From: Glaciihabitans sp. INWT7
Lineage (GTDB): Bacteria; Actinomycetota; Actinomycetes; Actinomycetales; Microbacteriaceae
Direction of reading: 5' to 3'
Length of the DNA: 64,000 nucleotides
Assembly: GCF_014217685.1 (NCBI RefSeq)
Contig: NZ_CP043653.1
Span: 1,616,419-1,680,418 of the forward strand
Under the pieces are notes generated by a model. It was not told the origin of the DNA. It did not search any database and worked only from the letters and a program-made list of their open reading frames with translations. Position numbers and translations under genes: made by a program. Positions 2,829 to 9,675 of the stretch are shown here, one piece after another. Each line of letters starts with the position of its first letter. Position 1 is the first letter of the stretch.

Positions 2829-5753
<2,925 letters not shown>

Positions 5754-5799: not shown

Positions 5800-7524
5800 T
5801 CAGTGCGTAGAGGCGAGTAGCGCCGGATCGGAGTGCCCGGGAATCGCCGGCCGGTTTCGCACGATCACCTTCGCCGGTCGCCGTCCGTTGAATGTCGTCG
5901 CCGTCACCGCCGTGTACGCCCCCATCGCCGGGCTCAGCAACAGATCGCCCTCCTGCAGCCGGGGCAACGGATAGTGACGCGCCACCACATCGACGCTGTC
6001 GCAGGTGGGCCCGCCGAGAGTGGTCGAGCGCAGCTCGACCGGGGTGCCCGCCAACTCCGAGCGGGCGACGATCACCGGATGCACGCCTTCGGCCATCACG
6101 TTGGAGTAGCTGCCGTAGACACCGTCGTCGATGAAACACCAGGTCTCGGACCCGCGCTCCCGCACCCCCGTCACCCGGCTCACCACCGTGGCGGCCTCCG
6201 CAACCAGGACGCGTCCGGGTTCGGCCAGGATGCGCAAACGGGACGATCGGGGCTCGAGCAGGGGACGGATGGCGGCCGCGATCTGCTCGATGCCCACGAC
6301 ATCCGTACGGTACCCGACGGGGAATCCCCCGCCGATGTCGAGGGTCGTGAATCCAATGTTCCACTGGCGTTCGAGGCGGTCCATCAGCTCGAGGGTGTCG
6401 GCCGTCGCTCTGGCGAAGGCGGCGACGCTGTCGAGCTGGCTTCCGACGTGGAAGCTGAATCCCGCGATACGGCTCCCCTGGGCGATGGCCAGGGAGAGCA
6501 GCACCTCGGCCTCTACCGCGGACACCCCGAACTTGCTCGACAGGTCGCTCTTGGCTTCCGGGTTCTCGTACGACAGCCGGATGAGCAGGTTCACGTTTGC
6601 GGGCACGTGGCGGAATTTAGCGAGCTCTCCCGCGCTGTCGATCACGAAGGTGCGGATGCCGAGGACATAGGCGCGGGTGATCTCCGTCGCGGACTTGACG
6701 GGCTGGGTATGGATGATGCGGTCCGGACCCACTCGATGGCCGGCCACCAGGTCGATCTCCCCATCGCTCGCGACGTCGAATGACCCACCGAGGGACGCAA
6801 TGGTCTCGATGACGTCCGGATGGGACAGGGCCTTCACCGCGTAGTGCCAGTGGACGAAGGGAAGTGCGGTGCGGAGACGGTCGTACTGAGAAGCCACGGC
6901 GCCGAGATCGAGCAGCATCAGTGGGCTGCCGTGCGTCGTGACCAGCGAGTCGAGATCGATTCCCTCGAGCGAGCGGCGGATCGTGTCGATGCGCCGGGCT
7001 CGTACCTGCGGGGTGAGGACCGTATCGTCGACCGGCGGCATGGCGCCCTGGTTCCTGGCGTCATCCCAGCGTCGGCCGAGCACATAGCCGAACCCCGCGA
7101 TGCCGTAGAAGACGAGGTCGGCGCCGATCTTCCCGGCGATCCATCCCGCCGCGGGAAGTCCGATGAGAAGCGGAGCGAGCCAGAGCAGAAGAGGGCGCAC
7201 GGCGAGCGTGTCGATCAGTTCGGCCGGACCGAACTCGATCGCGGAGAGCCAGGCGGTGCGGGCGATCGCCGATCTCCGTCGCGTGCCGGGATCCCCGCGA
7301 GAAATTCGCCACTGTTCGGCGAAATTGCGAGCGCCGGCCACCCCGTAGAAGCCCAGGTTCTCCCCGATCGTGCCCGCGATCGCCGCTACGAACAGTGACC
7401 CGCTCAGTCGATAGGAGATCGCGGCGGCGGCGAGGGCGGTCGCCGTGCCCGCGATCTCACTCGGAAGATACCGTCGGATCCAGAATCCCACGCCTCGTGC
7501 ATTGCCAGCCGACACGACATCCAC
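5800..7524 (-). CDS. Membrane-domain / type III PLP decarboxylase fusion (ornithine-decarboxylase-like)
   Basis: 574 aa in two parts. Residues 1-150 are hydrophobic and contain a duplicated module: residues 49-64 and 129-144 both read IAG-x-IG-x-x-L-x-FYG-[VI]-AG. Residues about 190-565 are a fold-III PLP enzyme of the ornithine/diaminopimelate/arginine decarboxylase group: PLP lysine in HYAVKA (Lys231), His359 in FHVGSQ, phosphate-binding GGGFP (398-402), AEPGR (434-438), and substrate-side Cys508-Asp509 in GPTCDSVD, which matches eukaryote-type ornithine decarboxylases. Inferred role: membrane-anchored decarboxylation of ornithine or a related basic amino acid to a polyamine. Start ATG 7524 follows GGGAGAG. 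It sits alone between uvrA and uvrB, with no other polyamine gene nearby. The enzyme half is confident; the membrane half is unassigned. Confidence 0.82.
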
Positions 7525-7605: not shown

Positions 7606-9675
7606 TCAGGAGATGTGTCCGGCGGCTTCCATCTGCCGAAGTTCCTTCTTCAGGTCGGACACCTCGTCGCGCAGCCGGCCGGCGAGTTCGAACTTGAGTT
7701 CGCCGGCGGCCTGGAGCATCTGGTCGTTGAGGTCCCGGATGATCGACTCGAGATCGTTCGCCCCGCTGGCGGCGAGACCACCGTGACGCTTGAGGTTCGG
7801 AGTGGGAGACCGCTTGCGCCCGTCTCGGCTGGAGAGAAGCTCCGCCGTGTCCGCGCCCTCCCTGTTGAGCGACTCGGTGATGTCGGCGATCTTCTTGCGC
7901 AGCGGTTGAGGGTCGACGCCCCGCTCGAGGTTGTAGGCCACCTGGAGTTCGCGCCGCCGGGTCGTCTCGGAGATCGCGAGTTTCATCGAGTCGGTCATCA
8001 CGTCCGCGTACATGTGCACGGCGCCGGAGACATTTCGTGCGGCGCGACCGATGGTCTGGATGAGCGAGGTGGACGAGCGGAGGAAGCCCTCCTTGTCGGC
8101 ATCCAGGATCGCCACAAGCGAGACCTCCGGAAGGTCGAGGCCCTCTCTCAGCAGGTTGATGCCCACCAGTACGTCATAGACGCCCTGACGGAGTTCGGTC
8201 AGCAGCTCCACCCGGCGGAGGGTGTCGACATCGGAATGGAGATAGCGAACACGAACGCCCGCCTCGCCGAGGAACTCGGTGAGCTCCTCTGCCATCTTCT
8301 TGGTGAGAGTCGTCACCAGCACTCGTTCATTGGCTGCCGTGCGTTTGCGGATCTCCTCGAGCAGGTCGTCGATCTGGCCCTTCGAGGGCTTCACCACGAT
8401 CTCCGGGTCGATGAGACCGGTCGGGCGGATGATCTGCTCGACCACGCTGTCGGTGATGCCCATCTCGTATTTGCCCGGGGTCGCGGACAGGTAGACCTTC
8501 TGGCCGACCCGGTCGAGGAACTCGTTGAATTTGAGCGGACGGTTATCGAGCGCGCTCGGCAGCCGGAAACCGTGATCGACGAGGGTGCGCTTACGCGAGG
8601 CATCCCCCTCGTACATCGCACCGATCTGAGGAACCGTGACGTGCGATTCGTCGATCACCACGAGGAAATCGTCGGGGAAGTAGTCGATCAGGCAGTGCGG
8701 TGCTTCACCCGGCTGGCGCTGGTCGATGTGGCGCGAGTAGTTCTCGATCCCGCTGCAGAACCCGATCTGCTCCATCATCTCGATATCGAAGGTCGTGCGC
8801 ATACGCAGGCGCTGCGCCTCGAGAAGCTTGCCCTCCCGTTCGAGCTGCTTCAAACGATCCTCGAGCTCGACTTTGATGGTCTTGATCGCGGCATGCATGC
8901 GTTCCTGCCCGGCGACGTAATGGGAACCGGGGAAGACGGACACCGCATCGAGCTTCTGCACCACGTCTCCCGTGAGCGGATGCAGGCTGTACAGGCCTTC
9001 GATCTCATCTCCGAACATCTCGATCCGGATCGCCAGTTCCTCGTACATAGGGATGATCTCGATGGTGTCGCCGCGAACACGGAAGTTGCCGCGCGAGAAG
9101 TCGACGTCGTTGCGCTGGTACTGCATCGACACGAACTTGCGGATGAGCGTCTCACGGTTGATCGACATGCCCACCTGGAGCGCCATCATGGCCTCCAGGT
9201 ACTCCTCGGACGAACCGAGACCGTAGATGCAGGAGACCGTGGAGACGACGATCACATCTCGACGACTGAGGAGAGCGTTGGTTGTCGAATGACGCAGACG
9301 CTCCACCTCGGCATTCACCGAGGAGTCTTTCTCGATGAAGGTATCGGTCTGAGGCACGTAGGCCTCTGGCTGGTAGTAGTCGTAATACGAGACGAAGTAT
9401 TCGACGGCGTTGTTCGGCATCAGCTCGCGGAACTCGTTGGCGAGCTGGGCCGCGAGGGTCTTGTTGTGCGCAAGCACGAGGGTGGGACGCTGGACGGCCT
9501 CGATGAGCCAGGCCGTCGTCGCGGACTTGCCGGTTCCGGTGGCGCCGAGCAACACGATATCCGTCTCGCCCGCGTTGATGCGCGAAGTCAGCTCGGCAAT
9601 CGCGGCGGGCTGGTCTCCGCTCGGCGTGTATTCGCTGATGACCTCAAACGGGCGCACTGAGCGTGTCGGTTCCAT
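7606..9675 (-). CDS. uvrB: UvrABC system protein B (helicase-like subunit)
   Basis: 689 aa. UvrB receives damaged DNA from UvrA, checks the lesion and recruits UvrC. The sequence shows Walker [12 protein letters not shown] near residue 45, the beta-hairpin aromatic run [12 protein letters not shown], the DESHV motif, helicase motif VI region QTIGRAARN, and a C-terminal UVR motif ([13 protein letters not shown]) for UvrC. The ATG at 9675 has no Shine-Dalgarno sequence; TAAGCT ends 6 nt upstream, so the transcript is probably leaderless. Confidence 0.98.

Follow-up and report, generated by a model that had tools for sequence, protein, structure and literature searches.

Many amino-acid decarboxylases cooperate with an antiporter, a separate protein that takes in the substrate as it exports the product; in Escherichia coli, AdiA and AdiC form an acid-resistance pair through which arginine is brought in, decarboxylated, and the amine passed out. 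The gene described here lies in a window of 64,000 nucleotides (the whole stretch of DNA analyzed) from Glaciihabitans sp. INWT7 and encodes 574 amino acids (5800..7524, minus strand), with an N-terminal membrane domain of ~160 residues, for which we use our own name, DAM, and a C-terminal fold-III PLP decarboxylase. AdiA is a fold-I enzyme, whereas the window enzyme belongs to fold III, and the window gene has as its neighbors not a permease but uvrB upstream (7606..9675, minus strand; NCBIfam NF003673, 1057 bits) and uvrA downstream (2829..5753, minus strand; NF001503, 1520 bits), all three genes being on the same strand. If DAM transports, as we propose below, the working would be similar: amino acid in, decarboxylated, amine out. 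By sequence, the nearest solved structure is the Vibrio vulnificus lysine/ornithine decarboxylase 2plj (residues 192-557, E 2e-85), which, with the type III PLP-dependent decarboxylases, has the same fold, PLP lysine, and Cys-Asp pair as the window enzyme; it differs in carrying Asp at the position known as 332 in the Trypanosoma brucei enzyme, where the window enzyme has Glu479. The arginine decarboxylase of chlorella virus PBCV-1 (PDB 2nv9/2nva) is also of fold III and matches with a lower score than the Vibrio enzyme (E 4.6e-36); it is reported (PMC2217671) to have Glu at this position, as the window enzyme does. Both matches cover the enzyme half of the fusion protein only. No such fusion, membrane partner, or membrane family was described in the titles and abstract openings of the open-licence papers listed by the literature searches.

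The initial annotation had read the locus as an ornithine-decarboxylase-like enzyme fused to a duplicated membrane domain, and the fusion itself is confirmed as a single open reading frame of 574 residues, beginning with a GTG codon within an open frame of 582 codons from stop to stop. There is no sign that a frameshift made this fusion, because GC content peaks at the third codon position throughout the gene (in every tested stretch, with a small margin over residues 61-120), which holds it to one frame. We also rejected a frameshift on the grounds that the two tails found in split relatives are, in our reading, longer than the linker and that fusions occur in other genomes. The N-terminal part of the protein is conserved in relatives.

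The decarboxylase domain (~residues 185-560; 5845..6972, minus strand) consists of a PF02784 barrel (178.6 bits against a gathering cut-off of 23.4, 1.8e-52) and a PF00278 sheet domain (70.7 bits against a cut-off of 23, 1.3e-19), the two matches together spanning residues 208-535. Alignment to solved ornithine decarboxylases places the PLP Schiff-base lysine at Lys231 (6832..6834, minus strand) and a cysteine, followed by Asp509, at Cys508 (6001..6003, minus strand), which we take to be the equivalent of ornithine decarboxylase Cys360. The fold-III assignment made at the outset, with Lys231 and Cys508-Asp509 as its signature, is thus borne out by both Pfam families and by the alignment, and with these catalytic residues intact we consider the protein very probably an active decarboxylase of a basic amino acid. 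It is not LysA, because its score of 204.8 bits falls below the curated cut-off of TIGR01048 (297.9) and a separate LysA-like gene in the same genome scores 391 bits.

Which basic amino acid is decarboxylated is a different matter, and the label "ornithine-decarboxylase-like" should not be taken to imply specificity for ornithine. At the substrate-specificity position of T. brucei Asp332 (its meaning taken from PMC2217671), the Asp expected of ornithine decarboxylase proper is absent and the alignment places Glu479 (6088..6090, minus strand). Among 63 distinct DAM-linked fold-III enzymes, counted after removal of duplicate loci of one genome, 58 have Glu here, four, which form the Virgisporangium/L104/L105 clade, are aligned with Thr at this place, and one is unreadable; ornithine is thus an unsafe substrate call. 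Ten fold-III enzymes without DAM include four with Asp (L119, L122, L123, and L125), two with an aligned Glu in a motif that is shifted and ambiguous (L124 and L126), and two that align poorly at this position (L120 and L121). The Glu marks one clade and may reflect a single event. As reported in PMC2217671, its authors linked the Glu of the PBCV-1 enzyme to arginine specificity, but the Asp332-to-Glu swap alone was insufficient for that specificity, and antizyme inhibitor, an inactive homologue, carries the same swap. On the residues at hand, arginine appears somewhat more likely as the substrate than ornithine or lysine. Agmatine-using enzymes were set aside as support for arginine: agmatine deiminase (PF04371) has no match in the window genome, and genomes with DAM show no clear excess of it over those lacking DAM (9 of 10 versus 10 of 14 in Microbacteriaceae; 0 of 3 versus 0 of 3 in mycobacteria), and the arginase family (PF00491), strongly matched in the window genome, is found at varying strength in seven of the eight genomes tested, a figure that has no control set.

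DAM (~residues 12-158; 7051..7491, minus strand) reads as two tandem two-helix units, residues 16-69 (7318..7479) and residues 95-149 (7078..7242), both on the minus strand and delimited by hhalign comparison of the two halves. A 16-residue pattern occurs once in each, at residues 49-64 (7333..7380, minus strand) and 129-144 (7093..7140, minus strand), and the copies are identical at 11 of 16 positions, a level reached by none of 500 shuffles of residues 1-160 (maximum 9). When profiles of the halves from 90 homologues were compared, they aligned in register over 54 columns with a score of 22.2 (P 4.5e-4; maximum 14.4 in 60 column shuffles), to which hhalign itself assigns a probability of just 33%. 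The repeated pattern and the internal duplication proposed from it hold up in both comparisons, and the view that DAM arose by internal duplication is supported.

The distribution of basic residues in the 90 sequences suggests four helices with both ends in the cytoplasm: Lys and Arg sum to 4.9 at the N-terminus, 6.1 in the central loop, and 3.5 at the C-terminus, as compared to 0.2 and 0.25 in the pair of short loops that connect hydrophobic stretches. This arrangement would place the enzyme in the cytoplasm, and from the same charges we infer that it sits at the inner face of the membrane. Hydropathy is moderate, with 17-residue means of ~1.0-1.7 in the hydrophobic parts and four helices that are not cleanly separated; tethering of the enzyme to the membrane is nevertheless likely.

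The hydrophobic stretches of DAM carry conserved acidic and basic residues. R18, in the first unit, and E97, E102, D105, R110, P111, D136, and F139, in the second, are identical in all 90 aligned DAMs. For E97, F98, G99, E102, and D105 this invariance is partly built in, because the scan that brought in most of the 90 rows required the motif EFG[PA][AV]E[LVI][VLI]D, which includes these residues. In a motif-free set of 18 rows found by profile (13 of the 90 and 5 new), R18, E97, D105, R110, P111, D136, and F139 are kept in 18 of 18, and E102 is replaced by Ala in four, all of them stand-alone DAMs of Bacteroidota; across the 95 homologues combined, E97, D105, R110, P111, D136, and F139 are found in 95 and E102 in 91. 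One could envision DAM as an anchor or docking scaffold that holds the decarboxylase near separate transporters and itself moves nothing. Its fusion to, and gene pairing with, decarboxylases would fit such a role, as would the separate AdiC-like permease in four Bacteroidota loci described below, where DAM could dock the decarboxylase; however, the invariance of R18, E97, D105, R110, and D136 goes beyond what an anchor needs, and many DAMs have no recognized decarboxylase. We regard a pure scaffold as doubtful, and place it after traffic of substrate or product, which is the role we favor for DAM.

Neither the families of Pfam, NCBIfam, and PHROGs nor the PDB sequences hold a convincing match to DAM, in keeping with the earlier statement that the N-terminal part could be placed in no family. 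Searches with 16 diverse members gave matches to single members only, the best being 0.016 in Pfam (E ≤ 1), 0.0027 in NCBIfam (E ≤ 1), and 0.012 in PHROGs (E ≤ 0.1), and the best match of the 90-row profile to PDB sequences had an E value of 0.78. None of these matches makes DAM an already described extension of PLP enzymes, and the searches made gave no match between DAM and AdiC or the amino-acid permeases. No relative was found in viral contigs with a one-motif query, or in plasmids with two single-sequence queries. DUF2061 (PF09834), a short membrane unit whose residue spacing gave us the impression of a look-alike, was rejected as the family of DAM, its hhalign scores of 11.6 and 10.6 being exceeded by the top-scoring shuffle out of 60 (16.7 and 15.0) in a comparison based on five DUF2061 rows only.

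A first scan of genome contigs with the whole protein as the query gave no match; in the relative identified first, DAM forms an open reading frame of its own directly upstream of the decarboxylase. A scan of 84,980 species genomes with an eight-row DAM alignment and one required nine-residue motif gave 103 relatives, and 80 of these 103 loci enter the counts. L012 and L014 (DAM profile E 0.0034 and 0.0026) were judged false from their other genes, L107 (E 8e-4) gave no match at 1e-5 on a repeat search, and L106/L109 (G637), in which DAM appears in two frames, was excluded. DAM-bearing taxa are Actinomycetota, Bacteroidota, and a few other MAGs. With pairing defined as a fold-III profile match (E ≤ 1e-5) on the same strand at a distance of -80 to 350 nt, a separate DAM lies directly upstream of a fold-III decarboxylase in 50 of the 80 loci, three are fused, and 27 are neither; among the 61 loci labelled Actinomycetota, 52 are paired or fused. 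The paired share, 53 of 80, is likely too high, because the scan motif is absent from four of five stand-alone DAMs of Bacteroidota. Because split pairs and fusions recur in this way, the window gene is almost certainly one version, in fused form, of a recurrent pair of membrane protein and decarboxylase.

In the split pairs, the best-scoring decarboxylase start overlaps the DAM stop in all 46 loci (of 50) with an assigned start, and 40 of these overlaps measure 4, 32, or 56 nt, which suggests translational coupling; the starts were assigned by simple scoring within a fixed search range, which is not proof, and three of the 46 have no motif resembling a ribosome site. The initial interpretation was sound as to enzyme class, duplication, and the absence of the N-terminal part from the described families searched, but it missed that most relatives keep the two parts as separate, mostly overlapping genes and that the substrate is perhaps not ornithine.

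The closest decarboxylases all keep DAM. At E ≤ 1e-60, the phylum yields a decarboxylase in 4 of 396 genomes, counting that of the window, and in all four DAM is fused or just upstream; the three others are unfused but encode DAM directly upstream, so that neither of the findings named at the outset as refuting the interpretation was obtained. More distant fold-III enzymes without DAM do exist: among 150 genomes of the family, nine have a match at E ≤ 1e-45, of which four (those of the window genome, G037, G152, and G191) are linked to DAM and five show no DAM in the locus DNA examined, which for L119 amounted to 2,353 bases; such enzymes are also present on plasmids. Distances between DAMs and between decarboxylases correlate at 0.82 over 61 genomes, a value that shared ancestry alone could also yield. 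Two of the ten aligned fold-III enzymes without DAM, from two Microbacteriaceae genomes of one genus (L117:1459-2802 and L118:1456-2772, both minus strand), carry Ala where the PLP lysine would be and Thr where the catalytic Cys would be, and are probably catalytically dead. In a Mycobacterium locus (L061:3940-5688), DAM occurs without a recognized decarboxylase where relatives have both, which may represent loss of the enzyme alone.

A quick tree was built from 71 decarboxylases after removal of duplicates and of rows shorter than 300 residues. A minimum of two changes is required to explain the fused state on this tree, so that fusion would have happened more than once. The window, Amnibacterium, and Klenkia enzymes fall in one region and L105 in a different clade; branches are long, including that of the window row, whose exact place is open. 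Two of the three fused loci are from Klenkia (L020 and L021) and have two tandem DAM copies before the enzyme. These tandem copies are not obviously accounted for if DAM acts as a sensor or regulatory subunit, turning its decarboxylase on or off as external pH or the state of the membrane changes, and Pfam and NCBIfam revealed no signalling domain in the fusion protein; we thus consider a sensor very unlikely, even though DAM has conserved acidic residues and is associated with AdiA- and AdiC-like genes. The decarboxylase of L074, on a contig labelled Planococcus (Bacillota), groups inside Microbacterium, and the contig is possibly a contaminant.

Together with the fold-III pairs, the neighbors of the 27 loci without a fold-III enzyme, identified with Pfam for a few loci only, indicate that the decarboxylases accompanying DAM belong to two and perhaps three unrelated folds. 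Six have another decarboxylase and/or an AdiC-like permease directly beside DAM, one (L089) is cut by the contig end, and 20 have no recognized decarboxylase. In four Bacteroidota loci (L075, L076, L084, and L088), DAM ends an operon as the third gene, after a fold-I decarboxylase and a permease, as judged by clustering; the identification was made in detail for L075 only, where the neighbors are OKR_DC_1 and AA_permease_2 proteins whose nearest solved matches are AdiA (680 bits, as compared to 507.5 for lysine decarboxylase) and AdiC (5.5e-36). The permease frame of L084 is broken, and L081 has a permease and DAM, with the upstream part lying beyond the contig start. In L067, DAM directly follows a PS_Dcarbxylase protein (PF02666) that is about equally near phosphatidylserine decarboxylase (3.2e-17) and PsiD-type tryptophan decarboxylase (2.3e-15). 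The suggestion that the membrane domain is tied to amino-acid decarboxylation gains support from the pairing and, in some loci, from the antiporter-like permease. The same permeases argue against transport by DAM, since a locus with an AdiC-like permease needs no DAM as exchanger.

Stand-alone loci imply that DAM has a role needing no neighboring decarboxylase gene. Among the 20 loci without a recognized decarboxylase, the upstream side of L087 is truncated, and an amino-acid permease is encoded close to DAM in L015 and L046; five further Bacteroidota DAM loci all lack a relative of the four reference partners within ~5 kb, and DAM is rare in that phylum (6 of 296 genomes). Such DAMs adjoin diverse genes, among them diacylglycerol-kinase-like and PAP2-like genes in L091 (read by eye) and a patatin-like gene on the other strand in L046. 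Together with the phosphatidylserine-decarboxylase-like neighbor in L067, these genes would fit a wider membrane role, for example one related to lipids or the envelope, or to ion or proton movement, that was recruited beside decarboxylases several times, with a product that may modify or buffer the envelope. We consider this unlikely given the predominance of fold-III partners among the loci labelled Actinomycetota (52 of 61).

The fusion of a membrane module to a decarboxylase suggests that the two parts work together at the membrane. Our best explanation as a whole, which we offer tentatively, is a fold-III PLP decarboxylase that resides in the cytoplasm and is kept at the inner face of the membrane by an N-terminal DAM, which would be built from two copies of a two-helix hairpin. 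The protein would have originated by fusion of two genes, DAM followed by the decarboxylase, which overlap but remain separate in many other Actinomycetota; the enzyme would decarboxylate a basic amino acid, and DAM would pass the substrate in or the amine product out, bringing production and traffic into one complex. That DAM itself transports or channels substrate or product is a hypothesis that we find possible but short of probable. A broader proposal, that DAM is the first member of a new family of small transporters or channels, built by internal duplication and pairing with decarboxylases of unrelated folds (fold-III, fold-I AdiA-like, and perhaps pyruvoyl PSD-like), and that here and in a few Actinomycetota a single polypeptide brings the amino acid in and sends the amine out, strikes us as rather unlikely.

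If the transporter reading is true, the fusion is a one-protein version of the decarboxylase/antiporter system. The recurrence of DAM beside or fused to decarboxylases gives a direct handle on how the reaction could be coupled to the membrane, makes DAM a candidate partner in the amine metabolism of environmental Actinomycetota that can be put to the test, and provides an uncharacterized membrane family with a defined set of conserved charged residues.

Several loci had individual features. One genome (G978) has three DAM matches (L103, L108, and L110), with a fold-III decarboxylase near L110 only. L103 is identical in a 300-base probe to L023 (Microbacterium sp. RU33B), where DAM lies opposite a PLP enzyme of Cys/Met metabolism, an arrangement shared by L058 according to clustering. 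With the same kind of probe, loci of four genomes from the family of the window genome proved identical to named records of Leifsonia (two), Amnibacterium, and Microbacterium. In three Bacteroidota loci (L139, L141, and L142), a stand-alone DAM lies beside the same aldo/keto-reductase-like and cysteine-synthase-like genes, as read by eye, and in Mucilaginibacter (L085:3932-4447), DAM is broken into two pieces.
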